The position numbers and the translations under genes are program-made. 64,000 bases of DNA from Marinobacterium aestuarii (GTDB taxonomy: Bacteria; Pseudomonadota; Gammaproteobacteria; Pseudomonadales; Balneatricaceae). The stretch spans positions 248,001 through 312,000 of the forward strand of contig NZ_CP015839.1 in NCBI RefSeq assembly GCF_001651805.1, read 5' to 3'. The notes under the pieces were generated by a model, which ran no database searches, was not told the DNA's origin, and saw nothing but the letters and a program-made list of their open reading frames with translations. Below are positions 1,004 through 41,930 of this stretch, one piece after another (position 1 is the stretch's first letter; each line of letters opens with the position of its first letter).

Positions 1004-1256
1004 AGATTAAAAGCAGGACCAAGGTAAAAGGTGCAAGGTTCAAGGTGCAAAGGCGTGATGGGTAATTCGTCATTTGTCATTTGTCATTCGTAATTCGTAA
1101 TTCGTGGTGCCCGGTTCGATTGGGTACCAATCACTATTCACGAATGACCAATCACTACCTGCTTTTGGTCATTATTAATTGGTAAATAGTGATTGGTGAT
1201 TGGTTGGCGAAACCAGCATGCTGATCACGATTCACGATGCGATAACCACAGGCTGA
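1004..1256. repeat. Heptad-repeat intergenic element 1
   Basis: The gap between the kinase and phosphatase genes has purine-rich heptads (GTGCAAG, GTTCAAG) followed by six contiguous heptads at 1062-1103: GTAATTC, GTCATTT twice, GTCATTC, GTAATTC twice. The opposite arm near 1120-1160 carries reverse-complement words (AATCACT, AATGACC). The linker near 1201-1222 ends in CTG followed by a decayed ATCACGA array (about two imperfect units). This is the most degenerate member of the family seen in this window. No protein or RNA gene is evident. Confidence 0.75.
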
Positions 1257-1988
1257 ATGGGCATGATTGATCTGCATAACCACCTGTTGCCCGGCATCGA
1301 TGATGGCGCGGCGGATATCGAAGCCTCGGTGGCGCTGGCTCGCCTCGCCGTGGCCGAGGGGATTACGCACCTGGTGTGTACGCCCCATATCCATCCCGGG
1401 CGCTACGAAAATACGCCTGCCACCATAGCCGCGGCCAAGCAGCGCTTCGTCTCGGCCCTGGCGGATGCGGCGATTGAGTTGCAGGTGGCGACCGCCGCCG
1501 AGGTGCGTTTTGGCATGGAGCTGATGCTGGGGATAGGTCAGAAGCAGATTCCGTTTCTCGGTGAGTGGGAGGGGCGCAAGGTGCTGCTGCTGGAGTTCCC
1601 CCACGGCGAGATTCCCTTCGGGGCCGAACGCCTGACCCAGTGGCTGCTCGATCGCGATATAGTGCCGATGATTGCGCACCCTGAGCGTAACAAGGGCTTT
1701 ATGCGCACGCCTTCCCGCCTCAAGGCTTTTCTGGATCAGGGTTGTCTGACGCAGCTGACGGCGGCATCCGTGGCCGGTCATTTCGGTGAGCGGGCGCAGG
1801 AAGTGGCGCTGGATATGTTGGCGCAGGACTGTGTCACCATTCTGGCCTCCGATGCCCACAACACCGAACATCGCCCGCCACTGCTGCACGCAGGCGTTGA
1901 AGCCGCAGCCCAGGTGATCGGTGAGGCCCGCGCCCGGGCGCTGGTGACCGAGATGCCGTGGAAAATCGCCCAGGTGCATTTTCAGTGA
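1257..1988 (+). CDS. CpsB/YwqE-type tyrosine-protein phosphatase (PHP fold)
   Basis: A 243-residue PHP-domain phosphatase expected to dephosphorylate the preceding tyrosine kinase. The N-terminus holds the metal-binding His-x-His (DLHNHLLPGIDDG, His7 and His9); further metal ligands are in CTPHIHPG (about 41-48), in the AEVRFGMEL region, in IAHPERNKG (about 140) and in SDAHN (about 200). Length fits the family (about 240-260). The first ATG is preceded by a weak ribosome site; an alternative ATG two codons in (1263) is possible. Manganese-dependent PHP phosphatases replace the low-molecular-weight Wzb phosphatase in many exopolysaccharide operons. The substrate is inferred from context. Confidence 0.9.
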   Translation: MGMIDLHNHLLPGIDDGAADIEASVALARLAVAEGITHLVCTPHIHPGRYENTPATIAAAKQRFVSALADAAIELQVATAAEVRFGMELMLGIGQKQIPFLGEWEGRKVLLLEFPHGEIPFGAERLTQWLLDRDIVPMIAHPERNKGFMRTPSRLKAFLDQGCLTQLTAASVAGHFGERAQEVALDMLAQDCVTILASDAHNTEHRPPLLHAGVEAAAQVIGEARARALVTEMPWKIAQVHFQ

Positions 1989-1998
1989 GTGATTGCCC

Positions 1999-2766
1999 AT
2001 GAGTACGGCGCAGATACAAGTATCCCCGGAACCACAAAAACGCCGCCGCCGCTCCTCGCCATCGCCATCGGCGGCGCCGACGGCGAGTCGCTTTGCCCGG
2101 CTGGGCTGGGGGCTGCTTTTGCTGCTTGCCCTGACCCTGGCAGTGCTGGGCGGGCGCCTGCTGCTTGCCGGCATGGCCAGCTACCAGGCCGAAAGCTTTA
2201 TCAAGGACTGGAACCGATCCGCCACAACGCCTGCGCCCCGTGCCTGGGCGGTGGCGCAGGCGGCGGCACAGCGGGCGGTAACCTTTTACCCCGGCACCGA
2301 TGGTGATCATTACGACCGTCTGGGGCGCATTTACGAATGGCAGCATGCCTTCGCACCCTTTGGCGATGCCGCAGCAGAGCCTTCCCGGCAAGCGGCGCGG
2401 GATGCCTATCGCATTGCCGTGACGGCCCGTCCGGACTGGCCCTACAGCTGGGTGCAGCTGGCCTATGTAAAACTGCGTTTGCAGGAATTTGATAGCGAGT
2501 TCGATAGGGCGTTTGCGCAGGGTTTCGAACTTGGCCCCTGGCGTATCGACGCCAACCGCTGGCTGGCGGAAATCGGCCTGCTGGCCTGGCCGCAGCTCAG
2601 CATGGCCCAGCGCGACCAGACGCTTGAATCCATCCGCCGCACAGTGGCCTACAGCAACGCCGAAGCCCGGCGCCTGCTAACCCTGGTGGAAAGCACCGGC
2701 CAGCAGCAACTGCTGTGCGATGCCCTGCCATTCCCGCTCAAGACCCGCCGCAAGATCTGCCTGTAA
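1999..2766 (+). CDS. VpsP-like polysaccharide biosynthesis protein
   Basis: A 255-residue protein with a short basic cytoplasmic N-terminus (KRRRR), one membrane segment at about residues 35-57, and an extracytoplasmic helical domain with tetratricopeptide-like spacing of Ala, Tyr and Trp (for example RPDWPYSWVQLAY). It ends in a conserved-looking basic Cys-Leu tail. The layout resembles VpsP-family proteins found in Vibrio-type exopolysaccharide loci; the family name is from memory of the overall sequence character and context. The ATG at 1999 is chosen over an in-frame TTG six bases upstream. It lies 10 bp after the phosphatase gene and is probably co-transcribed. Biochemical role unknown. 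Confidence 0.65.
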   Translation: MSTAQIQVSPEPQKRRRRSSPSPSAAPTASRFARLGWGLLLLLALTLAVLGGRLLLAGMASYQAESFIKDWNRSATTPAPRAWAVAQAAAQRAVTFYPGTDGDHYDRLGRIYEWQHAFAPFGDAAAEPSRQAARDAYRIAVTARPDWPYSWVQLAYVKLRLQEFDSEFDRAFAQGFELGPWRIDANRWLAEIGLLAWPQLSMAQRDQTLESIRRTVAYSNAEARRLLTLVESTGQQQLLCDALPFPLKTRRKICL

Positions 2767-2859
2767 AGGTTCGTGATTGAGTAGTAATTCGTGATTAGTA
2801 ATTAGTGGTTCGAGAAGCCCGCCCGACCTCTCTACCAATTACCAATTACCAATAACGAT
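2767..2859. repeat. Short heptad-repeat element 2
   Basis: The 93-bp gap between two convergent genes has left-arm heptads (GTAATTC, GTGATTA, GTAATTA) and right-arm AATTACC units repeated with a 7-bp step (about 2837-2851). It is a short hairpin version of the repeat family found in most gaps of the first 42 kb. It has no ATCACGA array. Confidence 0.7.
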
Positions 2860-4776
2860 TTACAAACCGCCTTTCACCTCCAGCGGAATATCGAGGCTGA
2901 AGCTGGTGCCTGTCGCGTCTGACTCGACGCTCATCGATCCCTCAAGTAGCTGATAAACCCACTGATGCACCAGGTGCAGGCCAAGGCCGGTATGGCCTTC
3001 GCTGCGCCTGGAGGTCACGAAGGGGTCGAACAGGGCGTCGCGTACCTGTGGGTCTATGCCCTGGCCGTTATCGCTGACACTCAGGAGCAGCCGCTCGCCG
3101 CTAAGCGTGGCCGTCACGTGAATTTCGCCTGAGTGTCCGGGTTTAAATCCATGGCTGAGGGCGTTGTCGATCAGGTTTTGCAGCACCTGGGACAGGATGC
3201 CGGGGTAGCCGGTGAGTTGCAGCGGTTCGTGGATATCCATGACCAGGCCGATCGGAGACTTTTTCAGGCGGTGGCTGAGGGAATTTCTCAGGTCGCGTAT
3301 CAGCTCCGCCAGGTCAAAGCGGCTGATCTCGTTGTGGCTGCGATCAACCGCCATGCGCTTGAAGCTGCGAATCAGGTCGGCGGCGCGGCGCAGGTTCTGC
3401 TCCGCCAGTTGCAGCCCGCTTTCGGTGTGGCTAAGAAAGCTGTCCAGCGCCGTGCGGGTCATGCCCTCGCGCACACTGGTCTGCAGTTTTTGCAGCTGTG
3501 TCTGCAGGGTGGAAATGGCCATCAGGGCGCCGCCGGTGGGCGTATTCAGCTCATGGGCAACGCCTGCGACCATCATCCCCAGGGATGACAGTCGGCGTGA
3601 CTCCACCAGTTCGTCCTGCAGCTCATGCAACTGAATATGGGACTGCTCAAGATTGCTGTAGGCGCGCACCAGTTGTTGCTGTTCCTGTTCCAGGGCTACG
3701 CTGAGCCGGGCTCGCTCCCGGTGGGTCCGGTACAGGTGATAGAGTGCAGCCAGCCCGAGGGCCAGCAGTACAAGGCCCGCCAGGATGACGGCCGTGAGCA
3801 GGTGGGTGCGGATCTTGGCGATGGCCCCCGGGGCGCTGGCAACCAGCACAAAGGCATGTGCGGGCGTGCTCTTGTCGGTGGCATCAAGATCATAGTGCAG
3901 GCGCGCAGAACTCCAGAGCCTGCCACCCTGCAGCAGGTTGTCGCCGGTTTGAGGGCGGGTCAGTGATTGCCACAGGGCTGGCGAGAGCAGGCCAAGGTTC
4001 TGGTCGCGGCGATTCAGCTGCAAGCCCCATTCCCGCTCCCGCTCAGGGTGGAGCAGCCAATAGCCCTGTTCATCCACCAGCTCGAGCGTCATGCGGGAGT
4101 CGGACAGGGAGCGCAGCTGCTCGAAAAACGCCGTCAGATTGATGTTGATGACCAGCACGCCGGGGTGCTGGTCGTCATGTGCGCCTGTAAGTATGCTGGC
4201 CCGCAGGCTGGGTTCCAGCGGCCGTACTATGAGGTTGTGTTCCAGGTTGAGGTCTAGCCTCGACAGGTAAACCTGCCCGGGCGCGGTGCGCAGCGCTTCC
4301 TGGAAGTAGTAGCGTTGCGCCTTGTTCTGCAGCTCCGCCTCGCCTACGCGGTAAGGGCGCCCCTGGCTCAGGTTGATGCGTACCTTCTCCTCACCGCTGG
4401 GATCGAGCCAGCGCACCTGGGAAATGGCCGGCACAGCGCGGGCGAAACGCACAAAGCTGGCGGCGAGGGCGTCCAGGTCTGCTGGCTGCCCGGCGTCCAG
4501 TGCCTGCTGCACCGATGGGCTGTTTTGCAGCACGCGGGTCAGGTTGCGGATATGCCCGAGTTCCCGGCTGAACGCCGAGATCACCCGCTCGACACGCAGG
4601 TTCTGGCGGTTTTCAAATGTATTCATCTGCAGTCCGAAGAGCCCTATATAGGCAAAGAAGCCCCCTGCGGCGAGCAGGGTCAGCAGCAGCAGTAACATCG
4701 CCGTCAGGGTGGCGATGAAGCGCTGGTCGTTGCTGAAGGCTTTCTGCCGCACCGATGGCTCGCGTCTGGCGGTCAT
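2860..4776 (-). CDS. Membrane sensor histidine kinase with periplasmic sensor domain
   Basis: A 638-residue kinase. One membrane helix (about 20-40), a long periplasmic region (about 45-310) of Cache-like character, a second membrane helix (about 325-345) and a coiled-coil linker precede the HisKA box with phospho-acceptor His408 (GVAHELNTPTGG). The ATPase domain has the N box (NLIDNALSHG), G1 (DNGQGID), an F box (FDPFVTSRR) and G2 (GLGLHLV). The start is taken at 4776, where its ATG overlaps the TGA of the upstream gene as ATGA; an ATG seven codons earlier is possible. It probably phosphorylates the receiver domain of the upstream gene. Signal unknown. Confidence 0.88.
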   Translation of the reverse strand: MTARREPSVRQKAFSNDQRFIATLTAMLLLLLTLLAAGGFFAYIGLFGLQMNTFENRQNLRVERVISAFSRELGHIRNLTRVLQNSPSVQQALDAGQPADLDALAASFVRFARAVPAISQVRWLDPSGEEKVRINLSQGRPYRVGEAELQNKAQRYYFQEALRTAPGQVYLSRLDLNLEHNLIVRPLEPSLRASILTGAHDDQHPGVLVININLTAFFEQLRSLSDSRMTLELVDEQGYWLLHPEREREWGLQLNRRDQNLGLLSPALWQSLTRPQTGDNLLQGGRLWSSARLHYDLDATDKSTPAHAFVLVASAPGAIAKIRTHLLTAVILAGLVLLALGLAALYHLYRTHRERARLSVALEQEQQQLVRAYSNLEQSHIQLHELQDELVESRRLSSLGMMVAGVAHELNTPTGGALMAISTLQTQLQKLQTSVREGMTRTALDSFLSHTESGLQLAEQNLRRAADLIRSFKRMAVDRSHNEISRFDLAELIRDLRNSLSHRLKKSPIGLVMDIHEPLQLTGYPGILSQVLQNLIDNALSHGFKPGHSGEIHVTATLSGERLLLSVSDNGQGIDPQVRDALFDPFVTSRRSEGHTGLGLHLVHQWVYQLLEGSMSVESDATGTSFSLDIPLEVKGGL

Positions 4777-6989: not shown

Positions 6990-7166
6990 ATCCGTACTCC
7001 CTTACAGATGATTCCCCGGGCTCTGTAGCGCGTAGCAGGCCTGAACCCAAGTATCCATCAAATGAGTGTAGTTGTCGTGCCAGAAAATGGCCTGATTGAT
7101 GCTGCTGTTGCACGCTGTCATAGGGTCTGGGTGTCATTGTTTGGTAACGATGGCGGGGTAAATTAA

Positions 7167-7202
7167 ATATATGAAAAATCATATATGTGAATTATCATAT
7201 AT
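7167..7202. promoter_or_regulatory. Candidate ArsR operator (two overlapping palindromes)
   Basis: Upstream of arsR lie a perfect inverted repeat ATATATGA-4 nt-TCATATAT (7167-7186) and a second, ATATATG-8 nt-CATATAT (7181-7202), sharing their middle half-site. Palindromic AT-rich sites of this form are typical ArsR/SmtB operators. The stretch is strikingly AT-rich in a GC-rich background and lies 50-85 bp before the arsR ATG. The rest of the 262-bp gap to the divergent gene shows nothing else clear. Confidence 0.65.
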
Positions 7203-7251
7203 CTAATTTCAGGTACGGGCTGTAACGCCACAGCGGCATGGGAGCAATAAG

Positions 7252-7596
7252 ATGAGCGCTAAGCTGACGCCGACCCAGGTATTCAAGTGCCTGGCCGACG
7301 AAACCCGCGCCCGCATGCTGCTGCTGATTCAGCGCGAGCAGGAGCTCTGTGTGTGCGAGCTGATCTGTGCGCTGGATGAAAGCCAGCCCAAGATATCACG
7401 CCACCTGGCTCAGCTGCGCAAGTGTGGCCTGTTGCAGGACAGGCGCCAGGGGCAGTGGATCTACTACCGCCTGCATCCGGAGCTGGCCGCCTGGGTGCGG
7501 GAGGTTCTGGCCACGACCCTTGCGGCTAACAGTCTGTGGCTTGAATCCAGCCAGCAGCGTTTGGATAGCATGGGAGGGCGGCCGGTGTGTGGGTGA
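7252..7596 (+). CDS. arsR: ArsR-family arsenic-responsive repressor
   Basis: A 114-residue winged-helix repressor of normal family length. The helix-turn-helix spans about residues 33-75 (SQPKISRHLAQLRKCGLL), followed by a beta-wing (RRQGQWIYYRL). Cys33 and Cys35 in ELCVCEL match the alpha-3 metalloid site of R773-type ArsR; Cys39 could be a third ligand. It probably represses its own operon through the palindromes upstream and is released by arsenite. Downstream lie the GAPDH and ArsJ genes, the known partners of organoarsenical efflux, although a 373-bp repeat block separates arsR from them. Confidence 0.92.
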   Translation: MSAKLTPTQVFKCLADETRARMLLLIQREQELCVCELICALDESQPKISRHLAQLRKCGLLQDRRQGQWIYYRLHPELAAWVREVLATTLAANSLWLESSQQRLDSMGGRPVCG

Positions 7597-7969
7597 AGCT
7601 GGGTGAAAGGGCGTAATTGGTCATTCGTAAGTCGTCATTGGTAAATAGTAAATAGTGATTGGTAATTGGTAATTGGTAATTGGTGGATTGGCCCTGCACG
7701 CTGATCACGAATCACGAATCACGAATCACGAATCACGAATCACGAATCACGAATCACGAATCACGGGTCGTAATTGGTCATTAGTAATTAGTCATTGGTA
7801 CAAGGCAGCAGATAGCCAGCGAATCACGATTTACGATTTACCAATGGCGAATCACAACCAACACATGTCCCGAAATTCGAAAACTCTCCTGAAAACCGCT
7901 CCTGCGTTTTCAGGATTTCCGCCATCCATGGCGGTCATTCCAGGCGACGCGGCCTGAGGGAAAAACGTT
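7597..7969. repeat. Heptad-repeat element 3 with 8 perfect ATCACGA copies
   Basis: Ten contiguous GTNANNN heptads run from 7613 to 7682 (GTAATTG, GTCATTC, GTAAGTC, GTCATTG, GTAAATA twice, GTGATTG, GTAATTG three times). A linker ending in GCACGCTG leads to eight perfect ATCACGA units at 7704-7759 plus one with a last-base change (to 7766). Further heptad words of both orientations fill the rest to about 7870; nothing is recognised between there and the GAPDH ribosome site. The element sits inside the predicted ars operon and could attenuate or process the transcript (inference). Confidence 0.85.
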
Positions 7970-8983
7970 ATGACGATCAAGATTGGTATTAACGGCTTTG
8001 GCCGCATGGGGCGGCTGGCGCTGCGAGCGGCCTGGGGCTGGCCGGAAGTGGAGTTCGTGCAGATTAATGATCCTGCGGGTGATGCTGCAACCCTGGCGCA
8101 CTTACTGACCTTCGATTCGATTCATGGCCGCTGGCAGCATGAAGCCGGCAGCGAGGCTGATGCCATTCTGGTAGACGGGCAGCGTATTCGCACCAGTGGT
8201 AACAAGGTGATCGGTGAGACTGACTGGTCGGGCTGCGATCTGGTGATAGAGGCGTCCGGCAAGATGAAAACCCGTGCGCTGCTGCAGGCTTATCTGGATC
8301 AGGGCGTGAAGCGGGTGCTGGTGACGGCGCCGGTGAAAGAGCCCGGGGTGCTGAATATGGTGATGGGCGTGAACCATGGCCTCTACGATCCGGCGCAGCA
8401 CCGCATAGTCACGGCAGCCTCCTGCACTACTAACTGTCTGGCACCGGTGGTCAAGGTGATCCAGCAGGGGTTGGGCATTCGCCATGGCTCCATCACCACT
8501 ATCCATGATCTGACTAACACCCAGACCATACTCGATGCGCCGCACAAGGATCTGCGTCGCGCCCGCGCCTGCGGTACCAGTCTGATCCCGACCACCACGG
8601 GTTCTGCCACGGCCATTACCGAGATCTTTCCCGAGCTCAAGGGGCGCCTGAACGGCCACGCCATTCGGGTGCCGCTGGCCAATGCCTCCATCACCGACTG
8701 CGTGTTCGAGGTCGAGCGTACCACCACGGTGGAGGAAGTGAACGCCTTGCTGAAGCAGGCGGCCGAAAACGAACTCAAGGGCATTCTCGGTTACGAGGAG
8801 CGCCCGCTGGTATCGGTGGATTACAAGACAGATCCGCGCTCCAGTATTATTGATGCCCTCTCGACTCTGGTGATCAACGGCACCCAGGTGAAACTCTATG
8901 CCTGGTACGACAACGAGTGGGGTTACGCCAACCGGGTGGCGGAGCTGGCGCGCATGCTGGGCCTGCGGGATCAGAGCGCCTGA
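7970..8983 (+). CDS. ArsJ-associated glyceraldehyde-3-phosphate dehydrogenase
   Basis: A 337-residue type I GAPDH: NAD-binding start [13 protein letters not shown], catalytic Cys in the [10 protein letters not shown] motif (about 155) and the phosphate-binding TTTGSATAI region. GAGG lies before the ATG. The gene lies 1 bp before arsJ and downstream of arsR. In the described ars pathway this GAPDH uses arsenate in place of phosphate to form 1-arseno-3-phosphoglycerate, which ArsJ exports. Central glycolytic GAPDH is the alternative, but the neighbours make the arsenic role much more likely. Confidence 0.93.
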
Positions 8984-8984
8984 C

Positions 8985-10205
8985 ATGCTGGCTTCGCTTT
9001 CAGACGGAGTGCGTCAGTATCTGCTGGTGACGGCCAACTACTGGGCTTTCACCCTCACCGACGGCGCCCTGCGCATGCTGGTGGTGCTGCATTTCCACGG
9101 CCTGGGTTATAGCCCGCTGCAGATTGCGCTGCTGTTTCTGTTCTATGAGCTGTTCGGCGTGGTGACCAATCTGCTGGGAGGCTGGCTGGGTGCGCGCCTG
9201 GGTCTGAATCGCACCATGAATCTGGGCCTGGCGCTGCAGGTGGTGGCGCTGGCCATGCTGTTAGTGCCGGCACCGAGCCTGACGGTGGCCTGGGTGATGG
9301 CAGCCCAGGCGCTGTCGGGTATCGCCAAGGATCTGAACAAGATGAGCGCCAAGAGCGCCATCAAGCTGCTGGTGCCGGGGGAGGCCCAGGGCGCGCTCTA
9401 TCGCTGGGTCGCACTGCTGACAGGCTCCAAGAATGCGCTCAAGGGCGTGGGTTTTTTCCTCGGCGGTGCCTTGCTCAGCCTGCTGGGGTTTCAGCTGGCG
9501 GTGGCTGTGATGGCGGTGATGTTGGCGCTGGTCTGGCTCGGCAGTGTTGTGTTGCTTAAAAAGGACCTGGGGCGGGCCAGGGTCAAGCCGAAATTCCGCG
9601 ATCTGTTCTCCAAGAGCGCGGCGATCAACCGGTTGTCGGCGGCGCGGCTGTTTCTGTTTGGCGCTAGGGATGTCTGGTTCGTGGTGGCGCTGCCGGTGTT
9701 TCTGGCGACGTCCCTGGGCTGGGATCACTGGTCCGTGGGCAGCTTTCTGGCGCTCTGGGTCATTGGCTATGGGCTGGTGCAGTCCGCTGCCCCCTGGTTC
9801 ACAGGCCGCAAGTCCGGGCGGGTGCCGGACGGGCGTAGCGCCTTTGTCTGGGCACTGGTGCTCTCGCTGCTGCCGGCGGCCATCGCCCTGGGGCTTGATA
9901 CCGGGCTGGATACCGCCACTGTGCTGCTCGGAGGCCTGATGCTGTTTGGCGTGCTCTTTGCGATCAACTCATCCCTGCACAGCTATCTGATCGTCAGCTA
10001 CGCTAGCCGCGACGGAGTCTCGCTGGATGTGGGCTTTTACTACATGGCCAATGCCATGGGGCGCCTGATCGGCACACTGCTGTCGGGCTGGCTGTACCAA
10101 ACCGCAGGTCTGGAAGCCTGCCTCTGGGTATCGAGTCTGTTCGTCGGCTTGGCCGCACTGCTGTCTGTCGGCTTGCCGCGCAGTGGCCAAGAAGGGGCAA
10201 GGTGA
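8985..10205 (+). CDS. arsJ: Organoarsenical efflux permease ArsJ (MFS)
   Basis: A 406-residue major-facilitator protein with about 11-12 hydrophobic helices starting near residue 15. The characteristic ArsJ N-terminus (YLLVTANYWAFTLTDGALRM) and the FHGLGYSPLQIALLFLFYE segment are recognisable. The ATG at 8985 begins one base after the GAPDH stop, so the two are translationally coupled; an upstream in-frame start at 8898 would lie inside the GAPDH gene and is rejected. It is predicted to export 1-arseno-3-phosphoglycerate, which breaks down to arsenate outside, conferring arsenate resistance. Confidence 0.92.
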   Translation: MLASLSDGVRQYLLVTANYWAFTLTDGALRMLVVLHFHGLGYSPLQIALLFLFYELFGVVTNLLGGWLGARLGLNRTMNLGLALQVVALAMLLVPAPSLTVAWVMAAQALSGIAKDLNKMSAKSAIKLLVPGEAQGALYRWVALLTGSKNALKGVGFFLGGALLSLLGFQLAVAVMAVMLALVWLGSVVLLKKDLGRARVKPKFRDLFSKSAAINRLSAARLFLFGARDVWFVVALPVFLATSLGWDHWSVGSFLALWVIGYGLVQSAAPWFTGRKSGRVPDGRSAFVWALVLSLLPAAIALGLDTGLDTATVLLGGLMLFGVLFAINSSLHSYLIVSYASRDGVSLDVGFYYMANAMGRLIGTLLSGWLYQTAGLEACLWVSSLFVGLAALLSVGLPRSGQEGAR

Positions 10206-10680
10206 AAGGTTGGAAAGCAGGTTAAAGGGGGGGAAGCAGGGGAAAGGTTAAAGGTGAAAGCAGGTGGTTGGTAATTGGTAAATAGTTATTGGTAATTGGT
10301 GGATTGGCCCTGCACGCTGATCACGAATCACGAATCACGAATCACGAATCACGAATCACGAATCACGAATCACGAATCACGAATCACGAATCACGAATCA
10401 CGAATCACGAATCACGAATCACGAATCACGAATCACGAATCACGAATCACGAATCACGAATCACGAATCACGAATCACGAATCACTGGTCGTAATTGGTT
10501 ATTAGTAAATAGTAATTGGTGAAAAGCAGGAAGCTACAACAGACGGATGTTCTACGAATCACGGGACGTTATTAGTCATTGGTAAATCGTTATTATAAAT
10601 AACTTTCAGAATAAACGCTTCGAATTACCAATAACTAATCACCAATTACTACTCACTACGAATCACGAATCACGCAGATG
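10206..10680. repeat. Heptad-repeat element 4 with 23 perfect ATCACGA copies
   Basis: The gap after arsJ begins with purine-rich words (GTGAAAG), then GTAATTG-type heptads, the same linker as element 3 (GGATTGGCCCTGCACGCTG), then 23 perfect ATCACGA units at 10320-10480 plus a partial unit. More heptads of both orientations continue to about 10680. Because three units make 21 bp, all three forward frames stay open and read as a 7-residue Asn-His-Glu-Ser-Arg-Ile-Thr repeat; this is not a protein gene. From 10681 to the next gene only a ribosome site is seen. Confidence 0.88.
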
Positions 10681-10751
10681 TCGCTTCCAGTCAGGTGCGG
10701 ATATGCCAGCGTGGTATAACAGGCGTTTTGGCGTAACAGGAGAGCGTTTCG

Positions 10752-12618: not shown

Positions 12619-12646
12619 GGAATGTCCTCGTTGCTTGGGTGACAGT

Positions 12647-13390: not shown

Positions 13391-13864
13391 AAAGCAGGTC
13401 AAAGGAGAAAGGGGCAAGCCGGTGGCCTGTGACGGGTCATTGGTAATTGGTAAATAGTGATTGGTAATTGGTCATTCGAGCACCCATCGTGGCTGCTCTT
13501 GCTAATTACGAGTTACTACTCACCAATCACCGGCTGTCATTGGTAGTGAATGGTGATGGGTTGGCGTAACCTGATCACGAATCACGAATCACGAATCACG
13601 AATCACGAATCACGAATCACGAATCACGAATCACGAATCACGAATCACGAATCACGAATCACGAATCACGGGTCGTCATTGGTCATTAGTAATTAGTCAT
13701 AGGTGCAAGACAAGCGCTAACCGTTGGGCTGCAATTCACGAGTGACCAATCACCATTAACCGGGCGTCATTAGTCATTCGGAAGAGCGGTCGGCTTACGC
13801 GCTTTGAATTACGAATGACGCCCTTTTACCTTGCCACTTTCACCTGGCTATTTTCCACTGTATC
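13391..13864. repeat. Heptad-repeat element 5 with 13 perfect ATCACGA copies
   Basis: Between two convergent genes. Left-arm heptads (GTCATTG, GTAATTG, GTAAATA, GTGATTG, GTAATTG, GTCATTC) start near 13437; a linker ending in GGCGTAACCTG leads into 13 perfect ATCACGA units at 13574-13664 plus one altered unit. Right-hand words (AATCACC, AATGACG) and a pyrimidine-rich end (CCTTGCCACTTTCACC) mirror the purine-rich start (AAAGGAGAAAGGGGCAAG). No gene is seen. Confidence 0.87.
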
Positions 13865-15040: not shown

Positions 15041-15446
15041 GGGTTCAATTCCGGAATCTGAAAGGGGTGGCTATTGTAGAGCCTGAGCGGGGAGAGGACT
15101 AGCCGGGCAGAAGAACGCAGGTGAAAGGGTGAACAGCAGTGAAAGGGGAAAGGGGAAAGCTGGTGGTCCGTGATGGGTAATTGGTTATTGGTAATTGGTT
15201 ATTCGAAGCACCCATTGTGGCTGCTCTTGCTAATTACGAATTACTACTCACGAATTACCGATCGTCATTGGTAATTAGTGAATGGTGATTGGTTGGCGTA
15301 ACCTGATCACGAATCACGAATCACGAATCACGAATCACGAATCACGAATCACGAATCACGAATCACGACTAACAAGGAAGGGGGCCGCGGTCTGCTTGCC
15401 CCCTTTCAACTTTCCCCTTGCTCCTAGCCTCTGAGCGTCATCGCGG
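15041..15446. repeat. Heptad-repeat element 6 with 9 perfect ATCACGA copies
   Basis: The gap between clpB (3' end) and purT (5' end). A purine-rich start (GTGAAAGG repeats near 15120-15160), heptads GTAATTG, GTTATTG, GTAATTG and GTTATTC near 15176-15205, then the linker GGCGTAACCTG and nine perfect ATCACGA units at 15306-15368. It closes with pyrimidine-rich words (CCCCTTTCAAC). The purT promoter should lie in the right part of the gap but is not clear. Confidence 0.87.
15378..15405 (-). terminator. Candidate terminator for clpB
   Basis: An 8-bp GC-rich stem (AAGGGGGC at 15378-15385 with GCCCCCTT at 15398-15405, 12-nt loop) lies about 40 bp after the clpB stop on the minus strand. There is no long T-run, so this is a weak prediction. 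Confidence 0.35.
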
Positions 15447-18130: not shown

Positions 18131-18183
18131 AGCTTTCAGCCGTAAGCTGTCAGCTTACGGCTTACGGCTTACGGCTGAAAGCT
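18131..18183. repeat. Hairpin element, family 2
   Basis: A perfect 16-bp inverted repeat (arms 18131-18146 and 18168-18183, arm sequence AGCTTTCAGCCGTAAG). Part of the loop and right arm is the heptad GCTTACG repeated three times. The same arms recur at 26358-26403. It follows the 3' end of the dipeptidase gene on the minus strand and may also act in transcription termination or RNA stability. Confidence 0.75.
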
Positions 18184-25915: not shown

Positions 25916-25943
25916 GACCTGGAAAAAAGTGAAAGGTGAAAGG

Positions 25944-26350
25944 TGATTGGTGAATCGTCATTGGTAAGCCGTGAAGCCTGAGTAGTGGGGGCGCTGCTCT
26001 ACGAATGACTAATCACCAATAACGAATGACAGGAACGGGTGATTGGTGAATCGTAATTGGTAAGCCGTGAAGCCTGAGTAGTGGGGGCGCTGCTCTACGA
26101 ATGACTAATCACCAATAACGAATGACAGGAACGGGTGATTGGTGAATCGTAATTGGTAAGCCGTGAAGCCTGAGCAGTGGGGGCGCAGCTCTACGAATGA
26201 CTAATCACCAATAACGAATGACAGGAACGGGTGATTGGTGAATCGTAATTGGTAAGCCGTGAAGCCTGAGCAGTGGGGGCGCAGCTCTACGAATGACTAA
26301 TCACCAATAACGAATGACAGGAGCGGGTGATTGGTGAATCGTCATTGGTA
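25944..26350. repeat. 96-bp tandem repeat, four full copies and a partial
   Basis: Units start at 25944, 26040, 26136 and 26232 with a fifth partial unit from 26328; the period is exactly 96 bp. Each unit is itself a mini-hairpin of heptad words: left arm GTGATTG, GTGAATC, GTAATTG; a GC-rich centre; right arm AATGACT, AATCACC, AATAACG, AATGACA. Differences between units are few (for example TAGTGG or CAGTGG in the centre), indicating recent expansion. It lies between two convergent genes and is preceded by GTGAAAG heptads in the same phase. Confidence 0.92.
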
Positions 26351-26357
26351 AACAGGC

Positions 26358-26403: not shown

Positions 26404-26446
26404 CTAAGCTGACAGCTGCTTTCCCCTTGCCCCTTTCACCTGCTTG

Positions 26447-27369: not shown

Positions 27370-27505
27370 TGTTGGTAATTGGTAATTGGTAATTGGTAAT
27401 TAGTGATTGGCGGCGCAACATCGCTATCAGCTATCAGCTATCAGCTATCAGCTATCAGCTCACGACTTACCAATTACGATTCACGAATTACCAATCACCT
27501 TGAAA
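27370..27505. repeat. Heptad-repeat element with GTAATTG and GCTATCA arrays
   Basis: GTAATTG heptads (27376 onward, three or more) and GTGATTG run into a different array, GCTATCA repeated five times at 27423-27457, followed by AATTACG-type reverse words up to about 27500. The word changes but the 7-bp period holds. It fills the gap between the bfd promoter and the ilvD 3' end. Confidence 0.8.
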
Positions 27506-32663: not shown

Positions 32664-32698
32664 ACCACCGCCTGAAGTGCGGTCTGACCTCTTGCCTG

Positions 32699-34042: not shown

Positions 34043-34043
34043 G

Positions 34044-35213: not shown

Positions 35214-35310
35214 GACAGACCTCGAAGGCAGATGACATGCGCTCTATTGTGCAGGCTTTGCAGGCACCGGTCTATGCGGCCATGGGCCTGGATGCCGGTC
35301 CCCAAAACAA

Positions 35311-35340
35311 AAATGGCGCCTTCCTGCGAAGGCGCCATTT
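35311..35340 (-). terminator. Terminator of the DUF47-pit operon
   Basis: A perfect 13-bp stem AAATGGCGCCTTC with GAAGGCGCCATTT (35311-35323 and 35328-35340, 4-nt loop). On the minus strand it is followed by a T-rich tail. It lies 27 bp after the pit stop. Confidence 0.9.
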
Positions 35341-35366
35341 GCGTACAGCAGGTTTGGATTACCAGC

Positions 35367-36632: not shown

Positions 36633-36656
36633 GTGGAAATCCTTGGTACTAAAGGC

Positions 36657-37337
36657 TTAACGTGCGAGCAGCAATTGCAGACGGGAGCCCACTTGCTGGG
36701 CGCGGTCGGCGAGGTCGCCGATCCAGTTGATGACCTTGTACAGGAACATCGCATCGATCGGGGGCATTTCTTTTTCCACGGCAAACAGGGCACTGCGAAT
36801 TTCGCGTTCCAGATCGTCGGCATCGTGTTCGAGATCGTCAATACTGTTGATCATCCCTTCAACAGACTTGACTTCATGGCCACCGAAACCCGAGCTAATC
36901 AGTTCGTCCAGTTCCTGCAATGCTGTCAAAGCCTGGGCGGATGTTTGCAGCGCGCTGCGGACAAACTGGCTCATCTGCGGCTGGATCGCAGCGGGTATCG
37001 CCATCTTGCGCCCGAGCATCAGGCCTGAAATGTCCTTGGCACGGTTCGCGATCTTGTCCTGCATGCGCAGCAGTTCAAGCAGATCGGCCCTGGGGACTGG
37101 CAGGAAAATGCTGTTGGGCAGGTGCGTACGAACCTCCTTTTTCATCGCATCCGCTTCATGCTCCAGTACAGTAATCCGCTGCTGGACGGCCGCAGCTGTT
37201 TCCCAGTCATCCGCCATTACGGCATCGAAGAACGGAATCAGCTGAAGGGCGCAAGACTGAGCCTTGGCAATGTGTTCCTGCATGGGTTTGAACGGCGAGC
37301 GTGCAAACATCTGCAGGATCGGATTATTGGTTACCAT
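36657..37337 (-). CDS. TIGR00153/DUF47 PhoU-like protein
   Basis: A 226-residue all-helical protein of the PhoU-like DUF47 family: MFARSPFKPMQEHIAKAQ at the start, and the repeated metal-binding acidic pattern in LEHEADAMKKEVRTHL (about 56) and DLEHDADDLEREI (about 170). It is thought to modulate the partner Pit transporter. The start at 37337 is chosen because family members begin NPI-FARSPF; an in-frame start at 37388 is less likely. Confidence 0.93.
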   Translation of the reverse strand: MVTNNPILQMFARSPFKPMQEHIAKAQSCALQLIPFFDAVMADDWETAAAVQQRITVLEHEADAMKKEVRTHLPNSIFLPVPRADLLELLRMQDKIANRAKDISGLMLGRKMAIPAAIQPQMSQFVRSALQTSAQALTALQELDELISSGFGGHEVKSVEGMINSIDDLEHDADDLEREIRSALFAVEKEMPPIDAMFLYKVINWIGDLADRAQQVGSRLQLLLAR

Positions 37338-37530
37338 TGGGTATCCCTGTTGGTTGTCACGACTTCGGGCGCAAGTATAAGTGGGCATAAAGCGCTGTTG
37401 TAGTAAAAGTGGAATATTTTTTTAACACTTTCATGCCTGAGGTCTCTTTTTGTGGGTCGCAGGCGACTCTTATACAGAGCACTGTCGGGCGGTTACACTC
37501 CCCCTCTAATCCTTCGAGGCGGACGAATTC

Positions 37531-38610
37531 ATGGCGCGAGAAATTGAGTTAAAGCTGAGTATTGATCCGCAGCAGGCGGCCGCATTCAAGGCTCTGCCGC
37601 TACTGGCGAAGTCTGATACGGCTGCCTGCCAGCGCCTGAATAACCAGTATTTTGACACCCCCGATCGCCTGCTGGCGCAGCACCGTGTGGCGCTGCGCAT
37701 TCGCGAGCAGGGCGAGCGCTACATCCAGACCCTGAAAACCCGGGGTTCGAGCCGGGGCGGGCTGCATCAGCGCAACGAGTGGGAATGGGACCTGGCGACG
37801 CCCGAGTTGGACTACAGCCTGCTGGCGACGGCGGACTGGCCCGAGGCGCTACAGGAGAGCGAGGTGCAGCGGCGCATTGTGCCGGCCTTTAATACCGATT
37901 TTGAGCGCACCACCTGGATGCTGCGGCCACAGAGTGTCAGTGGTGAGCCGGCCCTGATCGAGCTGGTGCTGGATCGGGGCCAGGTGAGCGCGACAACCGC
38001 CGGCGGCGCCGCGGTGACGACGGCGCTGTGCGAGCTGGAGCTTGAGCTCAAGCAGGGCTCGGCGGCGGATCTGTATGGCCTTGCCCTGTTGCTGGCCGAG
38101 GCGGTGCCGGTATTGCTGAGCGATATCAGCAAGGCCGAGCGTGGTTATCGTCTGCTGGGGGCGATGGATGAGCGCCCTGAGCCTCCATTAGAGCCCGTCG
38201 AACTGGACTCAGTGGAGACTTTTGCCGCTCTTGCCCAGCGCGCACTGACCCGGGCCAGCCGTGGTCTCGATGGCTGGCGTGGCTCTCAAGGCTTGGGTCA
38301 AGGGGAAGGCCGTGACTGGCCGGGGGCTGAAACCGCCGCCGTTGCCTGTCTGGAATTGCAGGCCCTGCTGCAGTGCTTTGCGACCCTGTTGCCGCTCACG
38401 GCCGAGTTGCAGGTGCCTTTGGCGCAGTTATGCCAGGGGCTTGAGGGCGCGCTGGGCTGGCGTCGGCTGCAGCGCCGGCTGGACAAGGCTGCAGAGGCCT
38501 GGGCAAGGGCACAGGCCCCGGCTGCAGCGGGCCAGCTGGATGCGCTGCTGAATGATCCCGCCACTGGCCGGGTGTTGCTCGGCTATGGTGCTCTGTTGCA
38601 GGGCTTGTGA
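37531..38610 (+). CDS. CYTH-CHAD inorganic triphosphatase (YgiF-like)
   Basis: A 359-residue protein. The CYTH domain (about 1-205) starts with the ExExK signature EIELKLSI and has QYFDTPDRLLAQHRVALRIREQGE and LELELKQGSA, implying hydrolysis of triphosphate (PPPi) with a divalent metal. The C-terminal part (about 220-359) is a short CHAD-like helical domain. GAGGC precedes the ATG. The next gene is glnE, the same neighbour as in Escherichia coli, which supports the assignment. Confidence 0.88.
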   Translation: MAREIELKLSIDPQQAAAFKALPLLAKSDTAACQRLNNQYFDTPDRLLAQHRVALRIREQGERYIQTLKTRGSSRGGLHQRNEWEWDLATPELDYSLLATADWPEALQESEVQRRIVPAFNTDFERTTWMLRPQSVSGEPALIELVLDRGQVSATTAGGAAVTTALCELELELKQGSAADLYGLALLLAEAVPVLLSDISKAERGYRLLGAMDERPEPPLEPVELDSVETFAALAQRALTRASRGLDGWRGSQGLGQGEGRDWPGAETAAVACLELQALLQCFATLLPLTAELQVPLAQLCQGLEGALGWRRLQRRLDKAAEAWARAQAPAAAGQLDALLNDPATGRVLLGYGALLQGL

Positions 38611-38706
38611 TACGAGGCTGAGCGGGTCGGCCTGCTGCGTCGACTCTGATAAGCTCTGCAGGTATATAAAGCTAAAAATTTGGCAGCTTCAGGGAGTAGG
38701 AAACGC

Positions 38707-41631
38707 ATGCTGGCACCGCAACTTGATCTGATACCACAGCCGCTGCATGGGCTGGTTGAGCAGCACTGGCAGGCACTGGCGGAGGTGCTGGAGCCGCTGG
38801 CGTTCACATCGGGCCCGCTGACGGCGCAGGAGTTTTCGCGCCAGCTCAGTTGTGTGCTGCTGGGCAGCGACTATGTGGCCGAACAGCTGCAGGCATCGCC
38901 CGGCTTGCTGCAGGGGCTGCTGGAACGGGGCGACCTTGTGCGGAACTACCCCGCCGGCCACTACCGCGAACAACTGACGGCTCTGCTGGAGGCGGTGAAC
39001 GATGAGGCCGGTTTGCACCGCTGTCTGCGACAGTTTCGCCAGCGCGAAATGGTGCGCATTGTCTGGCGCGACCTGACCCGCCAGGCCGACATGCGCCGCA
39101 CCACACTGGAGCTGTCCTGGCTGGCGGATAGCTGCATCGATCTGGCGCTGGAAAAACTCTACCAGGAAGCCTGTGACAAATGGGGTACGCCGCATTCGCG
39201 CCCCGATGCCCAGGGGCACACGCAGCCGCAGCGCATGGTGGTGCTGGGCATGGGCAAGCTGGGTGCCTTCGAGCTGAACCTGTCGTCGGACATCGATCTG
39301 ATCTTCAGCTTTGCCCGCAATGGCAGCACCCAGGGCGGGCGGCGCAGCCTGGAAAATCAGGACTTCTTTATCCGCCTGGGGCAGAAGCTGATTCAGGCGC
39401 TGGACAATATCACCATCGACGGTTTTGTGTTTCGCGTCGATATGCGGCTGCGCCCGTTCGGCTCGGCCGGCCCCATGGCCTGCAGCTTTGGCGCCCTGGA
39501 AGGCTACTACCAGGATCAGGGGCGGGAGTGGGAGCGTTACGCCATGATCAAGGCGCGGGTGGTGGCTGGCGATATCGCGGCCGGTGCCGAGCTGCAGACG
39601 CTGCTGCGCCCGTTTGTGTACCGCAAGTACATCGACTTCAGCGCCTTCGAGTCACTGCGTGACATGAAGGAGATGATCAATCGCGAAGTGCGGCGCAAGG
39701 GCCTGGAACAAAACATCAAGCTGGGCTCGGGCGGTATTCGCGAGGTGGAGTTTATCGCCCAGGCGTTTCAGCTTATTCGCGGTGGGCGGGATACAAGGCT
39801 GCAGCAGCGCGAGCTGCTCAATATACTGCCGCTGCTGACCGAGTTTGGCATGCCCCAGAATGCGATAGACGAACTGCAGGCGGCCTATATCTACCTGCGC
39901 AACGTTGAGCACGCGCTTCAGGCGCGGGCAGACAAGCAAACCCAGGAGCTGCCTGCAGATGGTACAGACCGTCTGCGCCTGGCCTGCAGTATGGGCGCGG
40001 TCGACTGGGACAGTTTCAGCGCCGAGCTGGAGCTGCATCGCAGCCATGTACGGCGTCATTTTGCTGATGTGATTGCACCGAGCAAGAGTACCGATGCCGA
40101 GGTGCTGGAAGATGTGGCCGAGTGGCTGGCGCTCTGGGATGACGCCCTGGAGCCGGAGGCGGCCTCGCAGTATTTGACCGAGCAGGGCTTTGATGACCCC
40201 GCCCGCAGCCTGCAGCAGCTGAATGATCTGCGCAGTTCCCGTACCGTGGCCACCCTGCAGGCCGTGGCGCTGGAGCGGCTGCGCATCGTGATGCCGCAGC
40301 TGCTGATGGATGTGGCGACGGTGGACAACGCCAGCGAAACCCTGGCGCGGGTACTGCAGCTGATTCAGGCGGTGCTGCGCCGTTCCGCCTATCTGGTGCT
40401 GCTGGCCGAGAACCCGGCGGCGCTGCGCCAGCTGGTCAGGCTCTGCTCCGGCAGTGCCTGGTTTTCCGACAAGCTGACGCGCCTGCCCATACTGCTGGAT
40501 GAGCTGATTGATCCGCGTACGCTCTATGCGCCGCCCGACAAACAGGCGCTGCAGCGCGAATTACAGCAGCATCTGCTGCGTATCCCGCAGGAGGATGTCG
40601 AGCAGCAGATGGAGGCGCTGCGCTACTTCAAGAATGCCCATGTACTGCGGGTGGCGGCGTCTGATATCACCGGCGCCCTGCCGCTGATGAAGGTCAGTGA
40701 CTACCTGACCTGGACCGCCGAAAGCATTCTGGAGGCGGTGTTCGATATCGCCTGGCGCCTGCTGGTGGAAAAGCATGGCGTGCCCCAGAAAGCGCCCGGG
40801 GAACCCTGTGATCCTGACTTTGTCATTGTGGGCTACGGCAAGCTGGGCGGGATTGAGCTGTCCTACGGTTCGGACCTGGACCTGGTGTTCCTGCACGATG
40901 CGGACCCCAACCTGTCCACCACGGGCGAGAAACCGGTGTTCAATAACGTGTTTTTCACCCGCCTGGGGCAGCGCATCATTCATATTCTCAGCACCTTCAC
41001 CGCCGGTGGCCTGCTGTATGAAGTCGATATGCGCCTGCGCCCGTCCGGCAATGCCGGCTTGCTGGTCAGTCCACTCAAGGCCTTTGCCGAGTATCAGCAC
41101 AAGGAAGCCTGGACCTGGGAGCATCAGGCGCTGTCGCGGGCCCGGGTGGTCGCCGGCTGTCCGCGCCTGACCCGGGCCTTTGAGCAGGTGCGGGCCGAGA
41201 TTCTGTCCAAGCCGCGGGACCAGGCCCAGCTGCGGCAGGAGGTGTGTGACATGCGCAGCAAGATGCGCGATCACCTGGGCAGCAAGCCTGGGGCCGACGA
41301 TGCACAAGGCGTCTTCAACCTGAAGCAGGATAGGGGCGGGATAGTGGATATCGAGTTTCTGGTGCAGTACTGCGTGCTGGCCCACGGCGGCCGCTATCCG
41401 CAGCTGCTGGAGTTTACCGACAATATCCGCATTCTGGATGCGGCTGAGCAGGTGGGCCTGTTTTCAGCGGCCGATGCCCAGAGCTTGCGCGAGGCCTACA
41501 AGGCCTACCGTTCGGTGGGGCACCGCCTGAGCATGCAGGAGCAGTCGAGCGTGATTGCCGCCTCGGAGATGGGTGATTACCGCGCGGCGGTGAGCCGCAT
41601 CTGGACAGGGCTGATGGAGCCCGGGAGCTGA
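38707..41631 (+). CDS. glnE: Bifunctional glutamine synthetase adenylyltransferase/deadenylase
   Basis: A 974-residue GlnE with two nucleotidyltransferase domains. The N-terminal (adenylyl-removing) site is VLGMGKLGAFELNLSSDIDLIF (about 180-200); the C-terminal (adenylylating) site is IVGYGKLGGIELSYGSDLDLVF (about 700-722). It controls glutamine synthetase activity in response to PII. The ATG at 38707 has TAGGA/AGGGAG upstream; an in-frame TTG at 38680 is rejected. Confidence 0.96.
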   Translation: MLAPQLDLIPQPLHGLVEQHWQALAEVLEPLAFTSGPLTAQEFSRQLSCVLLGSDYVAEQLQASPGLLQGLLERGDLVRNYPAGHYREQLTALLEAVNDEAGLHRCLRQFRQREMVRIVWRDLTRQADMRRTTLELSWLADSCIDLALEKLYQEACDKWGTPHSRPDAQGHTQPQRMVVLGMGKLGAFELNLSSDIDLIFSFARNGSTQGGRRSLENQDFFIRLGQKLIQALDNITIDGFVFRVDMRLRPFGSAGPMACSFGALEGYYQDQGREWERYAMIKARVVAGDIAAGAELQTLLRPFVYRKYIDFSAFESLRDMKEMINREVRRKGLEQNIKLGSGGIREVEFIAQAFQLIRGGRDTRLQQRELLNILPLLTEFGMPQNAIDELQAAYIYLRNVEHALQARADKQTQELPADGTDRLRLACSMGAVDWDSFSAELELHRSHVRRHFADVIAPSKSTDAEVLEDVAEWLALWDDALEPEAASQYLTEQGFDDPARSLQQLNDLRSSRTVATLQAVALERLRIVMPQLLMDVATVDNASETLARVLQLIQAVLRRSAYLVLLAENPAALRQLVRLCSGSAWFSDKLTRLPILLDELIDPRTLYAPPDKQALQRELQQHLLRIPQEDVEQQMEALRYFKNAHVLRVAASDITGALPLMKVSDYLTWTAESILEAVFDIAWRLLVEKHGVPQKAPGEPCDPDFVIVGYGKLGGIELSYGSDLDLVFLHDADPNLSTTGEKPVFNNVFFTRLGQRIIHILSTFTAGGLLYEVDMRLRPSGNAGLLVSPLKAFAEYQHKEAWTWEHQALSRARVVAGCPRLTRAFEQVRAEILSKPRDQAQLRQEVCDMRSKMRDHLGSKPGADDAQGVFNLKQDRGGIVDIEFLVQYCVLAHGGRYPQLLEFTDNIRILDAAEQVGLFSAADAQSLREAYKAYRSVGHRLSMQEQSSVIAASEMGDYRAAVSRIWTGLMEPGS

Positions 41632-41930
41632 GGGAGCACTAATTCAAGGGGCTAGGTGAAAGGAAAAGCGCCACGACTGCGCCGCGGGTGATTGGTGATT
41701 GGTGATTGGTAATTGGTAATTGGTAATTGGTAATTGGTGGGGGTGCCTGGCACGCTGATCACGAATCACGAATCACGAATCACGAATCACGAATCACGAA
41801 TCACGAATCACGAATCACGAATCACGAATCACGAATCACGAATCACGAATCACGAATCACGAATCACGAATCACGAATCACGAATCACGAATCACGAATC
41901 ACGAATCACGAATCACCGGAGGCTGCCTCC
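41632..41930. repeat. Heptad-repeat element with 22 perfect ATCACGA copies
   Basis: Between convergent glnE and ilvE. Seven contiguous heptads at 41688-41736 (GTGATTG three times, GTAATTG four times), a linker ending in GGCACGCTG, then 22 perfect ATCACGA units at 41758-41911 and a partial unit. The right flank has no mirrored GTNATT arm, unlike elements 3-5. Remaining bases up to the ilvE terminator are unremarkable. Confidence 0.9.

Follow-up and report, generated by a model that had tools for sequence, protein, structure and literature searches.

Many intergenic gaps of Marinobacterium aestuarii carry arrays of seven-base units in which G, T and A are fixed at positions 1, 2 and 4. The arrays keep a 7-bp step, their positions diverge at different rates, words change in blocks, and the sites are shared with the same gaps of a related species; the arms have a preferred polarity, are less complementary to their partners than to swapped arms, and concentrate in one chromosomal domain near dnaA. 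Our reading, tentative and somewhat short of an even chance, is that they are old platforms for multivalent recognition, kept at fixed sites, in which GT-A is read every 7 bp. The reader would be a protein, slippage would be the source of change, and the platforms might have a role in chromosome organisation or gene-end insulation.

The window, i.e. the whole stretch of DNA analysed, comprises 64,000 nucleotides (bases 248,001-312,000) of the M. aestuarii chromosome (genome G000, 5,191,608 bp, about 5.19 Mb). Its PurT protein is 81% identical to that of Marinobacterium mangrovicola, the closest match bearing a name. GTNA heptads at step 7 form 37 runs of at least three, 33 of at least four and 18 of at least five units on the two strands. 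Of all other spacings between 4 and 15, only the harmonic, step 14, gives runs of at least four (16), and runs of at least three are found 32 times at step 14 and once at each of steps 6, 10 and 15; as originally predicted, the word varies and the 7-bp step does not. When ten gaps were dinucleotide-shuffled 200 times, runs of at least three, four and five averaged 0.05, 0 and 0, against 36, 31 and 18 observed, so that the phasing is far stronger than in shuffled sequence; nor is it confined to the window, since arrays lie elsewhere on the chromosome and in a second Marinobacterium genome, G004. These results confirm that the seven-base arrays are real, and more pronounced than first stated. 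They lie in gaps between 1,004 and 41,930, and GTNATTN is the commonest type of word. The claim that most non-operonic gaps are built in this way was too strong: arrays are present in 10 of the 22 gaps of at least 80 bp in the first 42 kb (4/4 convergent, 6/13 tandem and 0/5 divergent, by a heuristic gene caller). The tandem 7-nt units, above chance and mostly intergenic, resemble heptanucleotide LSSRs or STRRs in those respects, but mixed words and position-specific rates take the place of a single identical word with position-random variation; stretches of identical words are also present (ATCACGA, 23.7 copies).

Throughout the window left arms lie on the plus strand and right arms on the minus strand. 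A left arm of seven heptads by run count (GTGATGG GTAATTC GTCATTT GTCATTT GTCATTC GTAATTC GTAATTC; 1055-1103) is followed by a right arm of four, also by run count (1128-1155), and a short left-arm run (GTAATTC GTGATTA GTAATTA; 2784-2804) by a right arm of four heptads in CAATTAC words (2836-2863). The left arm of ten heptads at 7613-7682 reads exactly as predicted (GTAATTG GTCATTC GTAAGTC GTCATTG GTAAATA GTAAATA GTGATTG GTAATTG GTAATTG GTAATTG), and ATCACGA arrays do form the opposite arm, at five sites in the window. One of these, nine units of minus-strand GTGATTC at 7702-7764 (ATCACGA 7704-7765), is succeeded 5 bp further on by a second left arm of four heptads (7770-7797). Outer GTGAAAG and GTTAAAG words from 10200 lead to a left arm of four heptads (10271-10298), a right arm of 24 GTGATTC-type heptads (10318-10485; ATCACGA 10320-10485), further left arms of five (10491-10525) and four heptads (10568-10595), and a right arm of five (10622-10656). 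The gap of genome G005 orthologous to 10318-10485 has the same core and then GTGAGTC words.

Farther on, a left arm of seven heptads (13429-13477), a right arm of four (13503-13530), a minus-strand ATCACGA array of 14 units (13572-13669; ATCACGA 13574-13670), a left arm of four (13675-13702) and a right arm of four (13733-13760) succeed one another, as do a left arm of five (15170-15204), a right arm of four (15231-15258), a left arm of four (15264-15291) and a right-arm ATCACGA array of 10 units (15304-15373; ATCACGA 15306-15368). Three minus-strand heptads of the GTAAGCC type (class C, see below) stand at 18152-18172. At 25929-26354 a 96-bp tandem unit is present in 4.3 copies, each consisting of a plus arm, a core and a minus arm, with the outer words GTGAAAG at 25929 and CCTTTCACC at 26432-26440. 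A left arm of five heptads (27375-27409), whose site in G005 holds other GTNA words, precedes a right arm of six (27457-27498). Finally, a left arm of GTGATTGx3 and GTAATTGx4 (41688-41736) is joined by the core GTGGGGGTGCCTGGCACGC (41737-41755) to a right arm of 23 GTGATTC-type heptads (41756-41916; ATCACGA 41758-41916); the G004 counterpart has GTCATTGx4 and then the identical core.

On the chromosome as a whole, 82 runs of at least three fall within 188-290 kb, and further arrays were found at 0.75, 0.9-1.05, 2.28, 2.5, 4.13-4.17, 4.67 and 5.17 Mb; four 20-kb stretches, with first bases 1, 1,500,001, 3,000,001 and 3,500,001, have none, and neither has the window from 42,047 to 64,000. About 12% of the chromosome was read, partly picked where array words had been found, so these rates are not genome-wide; the stretches of G000, G004, G005, G001 and G759 likewise lie mostly around array matches or orthologues, plus a few controls, and all gap percentages apply to the sampled stretches. 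GTAATTGx3 occurs 18 times in 150-290 kb of M. aestuarii among the 34 places listed of 50 counted, and 24 times in 3,340-3,480 kb of G004 among the 34 listed of 40 counted. The dense regions of the two genomes (135-294 kb in M. aestuarii) are syntenic; the M. aestuarii sequence begins at dnaA, and the distance from the dense region to dnaA is 0.135-0.294 Mb there and 0.11-0.25 Mb in G004. These are the two GTAATTG-rich genomes among the seven of the genus; G001 and G002 are slightly above controls, and in G003, G005 and G006 GTAATTG words are not above controls.

The constraint on individual positions is evident from the aligned orthologous arrays of M. aestuarii and G004 (18 gaps, 173-177 columns per position). 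Mismatch at positions 1-7 is.169,.136,.489,.179,.293,.246 and.474, compared with.256 in the other columns of array gaps and.266 in array-free gaps; position 6 (.246) is thus barely slower than other columns. When one long gap is left out (17 gaps), the values are.166,.134,.506,.196,.286,.232 and.451 with M. aestuarii as the reference (other columns.292) and.107,.149,.479,.145,.274,.189 and.372 with G004 as the reference (other columns.303). Three neutral simulations with random 7-bp indels, aligned by the procedure used for the real arrays, gave flat profiles of.22-.31; their model leaves aside that a variant can spread across an array. The original prediction had seen more order than a decayed simple repeat would show, and rightly so: positions 1, 2 and 4 are slower and positions 3 and 7 faster than the spacer, and the simulation is flat. 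Within genomes, adjacent units (pairs with at most three differences) differ 31, 43, 175, 44, 85, 37 and 176 times at positions 1-7 in M. aestuarii (585 pairs) and 21, 25, 83, 16, 48, 16 and 72 times in G004 (289 pairs), so the positions rank as they do between species. Whole blocks also differ between the two species: GTAATTGx4 versus GTCATTGx4 in near-identical context (M. aestuarii gap at 289,632; window 41,709-41,736), GTGATTGx6 versus GTAATTGx6 (201,064), and GTAAGTCx7 versus GTAATTGx7 (188,822). That positions 3 and 7 diverge more than the spacer is not what plain neutrality of the free positions predicts; avoidance of complementary arms may lie behind it.

The sites themselves are old, as arrays lie at matching gaps of M. 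aestuarii and G004. Median flank identity is 91.5% between M. aestuarii and its sister G005, 87.2% between G004 and M. aestuarii, and 86.8% between G004 and G005. G004 carries arrays at 15 of the 16 gaps that have them in M. aestuarii and at 0 of 43 array-free gaps (Fisher 4e-13); a second region gives 3/3 and 0/14, and the two regions pooled 18/19 and 0/57. Starting from G004, arrays are present in M. aestuarii at 16/17 array gaps and 2/50 array-free gaps, and in the second region at 3/3 and 0/13. In word content, orthologous sites resemble each other more than random sites do (Jaccard.166 versus.074; 18 gaps, M. aestuarii versus G004), so turnover is incomplete. In the more distant G001 (78% identity) arrays lie at 1/5 M. 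aestuarii array gaps and 1/18 others, i.e. without site association.

G005 carries arrays at 5 of 20 M. aestuarii array gaps and 0 of 55 array-free gaps; since they are missing from most of the orthologous gaps, the arrays are dispensable. Of the 49 gaps located in each of the three genomes, 36 are array-free, three have an array throughout, nine have one in M. aestuarii and G004, and one has it in M. aestuarii alone; G005 thus lacks 9 of the 12 arrays common to the other two, and array loss in G005 would be the simplest reading of this pattern. The three related genomes amount to a natural experiment, in which one pair keeps sites and anchors while words change and the third has lost most; recognition can therefore be separated from slippage.

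Such losses are also a point for neutral long simple-sequence repeats, in which slippage builds and homogenises the arrays, point mutation diversifies them, and they survive in harmless gaps with no reader. Heptanucleotides are the most abundant long-repeat unit in most of the genomes of Mrazek et al. 2007, as summarized in the part of PMC4679880 available to us, which favors this explanation, as does the fact that word blocks differ in length. G005 has REP-like repeats in 4 of 20 gaps orthologous to M. aestuarii array gaps and in 0 of 55 others, suggesting that array gaps tolerate repeats. Further, GTGATTCx3 was found among 283 genomes of the order in M. aestuarii and one other, against five for the reversed control; outside the genus GTGATTC words are accordingly no commoner than the control (1 versus 5 of 282 genomes), and a general bacterial preference for GTNANTN words is unsupported. 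Neutral repeats do not predict slow positions 1, 2 and 4 together with fast positions 3 and 7, nor the polarity of the arms, nor arrays in 18 of 19 same gaps after 13% divergence versus 0 of 57 others, and we consider them a possible but unlikely explanation.

Gene context was assigned with a heuristic gene caller. None of the 210 runs of at least three in the stretches read lies within a predicted gene. Among gaps of at least 80 bp in four genomes, arrays are present in 28 of 80 that are convergent, in 47 of 314 tandem ones and in 6 of 119 divergent ones, at a median distance of 60 bp from a gene 3' end (n=110) and 134 bp from a 5' end (n=60). Array gaps number 85, with a single orientation in 33 and both orientations in 52; of the latter, 38 face as GTNANNN> core <NNNTNAC, four have the reverse order and ten begin and end alike. 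Three of the four reversed gaps are in G001, whose many GTNAC words read on both strands. Facing arms enclose a core with a median length of 25 bp (63 pairs); the median separation of back-to-back arms, some of which overlap, is 5 bp (29 pairs). Lag-7 arrays without the GT register were dropped (16/100 in M. aestuarii, 21/57 in G004), as were 6 of the 63 arm pairs, with spacing beyond 5-50 bp, and then one duplicate, gaps shorter than 40 bp, gaps lacking a located flank, and flanks more than 4 kb apart.

The arms are also layered. Class-A words (GTGAAAG, GGGGCAA) lie outside class-B words (GTNATTN) in 36 of the 45 arms having both. The original prediction listed GTGAAAG among the changing words, but words of this type do not form one series with GTNATTN: they are a separate class, and where they precede GTNATTN words nearby they do so at six different offsets in 14 cases, with no fixed phase. 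Class C (GTAAGCC, GTGAGCT) follows class B in phase in 18 of 19 transitions and precedes it in phase in 0 of 4, counts that include doubles because GTGAAAG fits two classes; class B is outside class C in 18 of 27 arms. As class-A words are off GTNANTN and out of phase, a single reader does not explain all layers.

Convergent, layered, non-complementary arms would be the product of a dedicated copying enzyme, a telomerase-like reverse transcriptase or end-adding polymerase that adds G-rich heptads to the two 3' ends at a break. In 38 of 52 mixed gaps the G-rich strand of each arm does point to the core (reverse in four), the arms are not complementary, and the A-outside-B order fits such an enzyme. 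A dedicated expansion or copying process had been proposed in the original prediction; it finds no support in the gaps, as the array-free gaps of M. aestuarii have no arrays in G004 (0/43, 0/14) or G005 (0/55), and those of G004 have arrays in M. aestuarii in only 2/50 and 0/13 cases, i.e. new sites are few between species. Reverse transcriptase matches number four in M. aestuarii, two in G004 and none in G005, which nevertheless keeps some arrays; neither heptad runs nor a repeat-bearing template RNA were found in four of these six loci (two in M. aestuarii, two in G004), which by eye are group II intron-like. On the four loci read, a dedicated reverse transcriptase was set aside as a candidate, and we regard the copying enzyme as very improbable.

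Equally improbable, in our judgment, is a mobile palindromic family of the REP/BIME type, moved by a RAYT transposase and containing internal microsatellites. Cores are common to several gaps of M. aestuarii, G004 and G005 (e.g. CACGCTGATC), the arms are paired and convergent, and REP/BIME elements, in the descriptions available to us, are likewise intergenic inverted repeats. Y1 transposase matches occur in all seven genomes; in M. aestuarii one such match falls within the dense region, with a heptad run about 0.75 kb away. The arrays differ from REP/BIME in lacking a GTAG tag plus a single-hairpin unit, and they rarely occur at new gaps. Of the 12 Y1 matches in M. aestuarii (four) and G004 (eight), the three RAYT-type loci examined (two and one) lie amid other, GTAG-tagged repeats of their own, and the arrays are not clustered round the RAYT gene at these three; a RAYT/REP origin was rejected on these grounds. 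A stop-codon cassette was set aside by reasoning: GTCA and GTTA words are free of stop codons, and conservation of G1 would be needless.

Facing arms downstream of genes might instead act as transcribed hairpins, pairing in the RNA as terminators or as protectors of mRNA 3' ends. Compared with dinucleotide shuffles, arm-core-arm RNAs do form more stable folds (median z -2.7; 66% of 56 below -2), and cores are on average slightly more stable than shuffled ones (mean -4.7 versus -3.7 kcal/mol), although 48% of 52 cores are no better than their own shuffles. Partner arms, however, match at free positions 310 times versus 377 for swapped arms (sd 21), and they fold worse, with a mean MFE of -29.6 versus -33.4 kcal/mol for swapped arms (sd 0.9, 56 pairs); array copies are partly related, so the deviations in these arm tests are not independent. 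Since partners pair worse than swapped arms, there is no sign of compensatory change, and the RNA hairpin was rejected as the selected feature. The outer ends described in the original prediction as complementary in character are thus mirror-image arms, not base-paired ones. The arms also lack the complementary stem and T run of an intrinsic terminator: no T run follows the arms in the gaps inspected by eye, and one array gap has, beside the array, a separate strong, bidirectional, intrinsic terminator-like hairpin (41984-42015). The window gave no match to known structured RNAs in Rfam at the gathering threshold. We think RNA hairpins improbable.

A putative reader of GT-A would bring these properties together. 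G1, T2 and A4 (T6 weakly) would be read by a factor with sequence specificity, in the simplest case a DNA-binding protein lying side by side on the helix at a 7-bp pitch; it would ignore positions 3 and 7 and, for the most part, position 5. Slippage during replication, 7 bp at a time, would alter copy number and carry new words across an array, so that the free positions would turn over in concert and the anchors stay. Near gene 3' ends two arrays usually face each other across a core of about 19-33 bp, and they are densest in a single domain 0.1-0.3 Mb from dnaA. Perfectly complementary partner arms are avoided, which is what instability of long perfect palindromes would produce. The ribbon-helix-helix ParB of plasmid pSM19035, which binds contiguous heptads, is a precedent for the 7-bp pitch in the accessible part of PMC9499535. 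Omega_Repress (PF07764) had no match in the seven genomes, and controls were equally silent, so the result speaks neither for nor against such a protein. Thirteen genes of the dense region are common to M. aestuarii and G004 and were not found in the G005 stretch examined; the seven of these that were scanned comprise an RraA-like protein, two tricarboxylate transporter parts, a Mutator transposase, a glycosyltransferase, an epimerase and one protein without a match. The transposase was the sole DNA-binding family among the seven, and no reader was found there. Against this reading speak the arrays at only 5 of 20 M. aestuarii array gaps in G005, GTAATTG richness in only two of the seven genus genomes, the lack of site association in G001, the off-phase class-A words, a position 6 that is barely slow and the excess divergence at positions 3 and 7. 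A bolder version, which we think possible but unlikely, is a "pitch-and-anchor" code. What is kept across 13% divergence would be a mark, GT-A every 7 bp, rather than a sequence; it would stand at constant gene-end sites of a domain close to the origin, for a putative filament-forming, centromere- or insulator-like reader. Blocks would switch words while the mark stays, and G005 would have lost most of it. In either version, GT-A at a 7-bp pitch provides a defined bait for finding the putative reader.

Heptamer repeats occur in several unrelated bacterial groups. The STRR heptamers of cyanobacteria and the long simple sequence repeats described in PMC4679880 have the same unit length and intergenic habitat as the arrays described here, and we know of no anchor-and-free-position pattern in them. 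The suggestion that such heptamer repeats are the nearest kind was right, and the closest match within that kind is the (GGGANTN)n repeats of Xanthomonas. For these and the GGGGA(C/T)T repeats of Nostoc, the closest known system (Rehm et al. 2015, PMC4692102), the accessible text describes 7-nt units of mixed words, intergenic and near 3' ends, that are scarce between divergent genes and form convergent pairs (70 and 75 cases). The M. aestuarii arrays share these properties, including the convergent inverted pairs and the scarcity in divergent gaps. In the same source, 83% of the repeats keep their gene context in a relative while varying in length and sequence; conserved positions are 1-4 and 6 in the Xanthomonas logo, compared with 1, 2, 4 and weakly 6 here. 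Xanthomonas repeats are genome-wide there, whereas ours concentrate in one domain near dnaA, and per-position substitution rates and block-wise word change, given here, do not appear for Xanthomonas in the part of PMC4692102 available. The units of Xanthomonas and Nostoc carry GGG and form G-quadruplexes in vitro, according to that text; GTNANTN units are without a G-tract, so quadruplexes are not the shared basis and are ruled out for GTNANTN arrays, although GGG is present in outer class-A words such as GGGGCAA.

The TAACTGA repeats of Beggiatoaceae, Cyanobacteria and Bacteroidetes (MacGregor 2015, PMC4679880, as far as accessible) are likewise intergenic and patchy with 7-nt indels, and their reverse complement rotates to GTTATCA, which fits GTNA. 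According to the same paper, TAACTGA is mixed with other heptamers in Microcystis, and Elizabethkingia has larger heptamer assemblages. In the Beggiatoa material of that paper a single fixed word, with single-base variants rarely repeated, lies mostly just upstream of start codons, in contrast to the many words, gene-downstream location and facing arms found here. The available portions of the two papers put heptamer repeats down to slippage, quadruplexes or translation control (PMC4692102, PMC4679880). The parS site of pSM19035 has 7-10 contiguous WATCACW heptads, direct and inverted, bound by the ribbon-helix-helix ParB/Omega, and at least four heptads are needed for ATPase activation (PMC9499535, accessible part). 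The ATCACGA arrays match WATCACW in 6/7 letters (AATCACG), and most other words differ more; parS, as described there, also differs from our arrays in having one consensus word and lying in plasmid promoter regions. Four double heptad words had no match in the open full-text literature, and Marinobacterium is not mentioned among the open-literature matches listed. These likenesses and differences suggest that the arrays are a variant among heptamer repeats, and there is evidence that they are recognized once every 7 bp.

As a word preference outside the genus is unsupported, the likeness to the Xanthomonas and Nostoc words is a lead, and by our estimate about one in ten random heptamers fits G[GT]NANTN in some register. 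A search with the R1 model, which is biased towards such words, matched 14 of 293 genomes, M. aestuarii included. The 80 PurT loci (1.0 Mb, mostly Pseudomonas) held a single segment of period 7, and four of the six other lags tried likewise gave one each, so arrays are not common in that sample. In the distant genome G759, with GGGAATC words, the arrays face each other, by eye, at all four of the places with two orientations, and one further array is single.

In the sister genome of M. aestuarii from which most arrays are missing (G005), REP-like GTAGGAGCCGCG hairpins occupy the places of the M. aestuarii heptad arrays; they are present in 4 of the 20 G005 gaps orthologous to M. aestuarii array gaps, versus 0 of the 55 other gaps, and the gaps that carry them include the orthologues of window 7597-7969, 10206-10751, and 41632-42045. 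The window also contains a strong, bidirectional terminator-like hairpin at 41984-42015, and a very similar hairpin is found in the corresponding gaps of both G005 and G004, the second array-rich genome of the genus.

The more distant G001 (78% identity) carries GTNACNN heptads such as GTGACAG, GTTACGC, and GTAACCC (L199:7507-7553 and L200:14444-14497, each chromosome stretch numbered in its own coordinates), in which GTNA can be read on either strand; this is a further word set with the G1, T2, and A4 anchors unchanged. Two reverse transcriptase ORFs, of 394 and at least 360 aa, lie side by side in the same genome (L172:1218-3472) and were judged by eye not to be group II intron-like; reverse transcriptase matches in similarly close pairs occur in G002, G003, and G006.

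At window 25942-26351 there are 4.3 near-identical tandem copies of a 96-bp unit, each unit being one arm-core-arm module (GTNANNN heptads, core, inverted heptads); these copies are a recent segmental amplification. Heptad arrays also lie in the gap within, and in the gap following, a cluster (window 7252-10205) of an ArsR-type regulator, a GAPDH-like gene (by eye), and an ArsJ arsenical efflux gene.

Repeats of the GTAGGGTG type flank the genes for Y1 (RAYT-like) transposases (~204 aa) at L135:9129-10400 and L157:4071-5500, loci that are syntenic between M. aestuarii and G004. The Mutator-family transposase at L129:15863-17077, 97% identical to a G004 copy at a different position, is a recent mobile element within the dense array region (135-294 kb, near dnaA).
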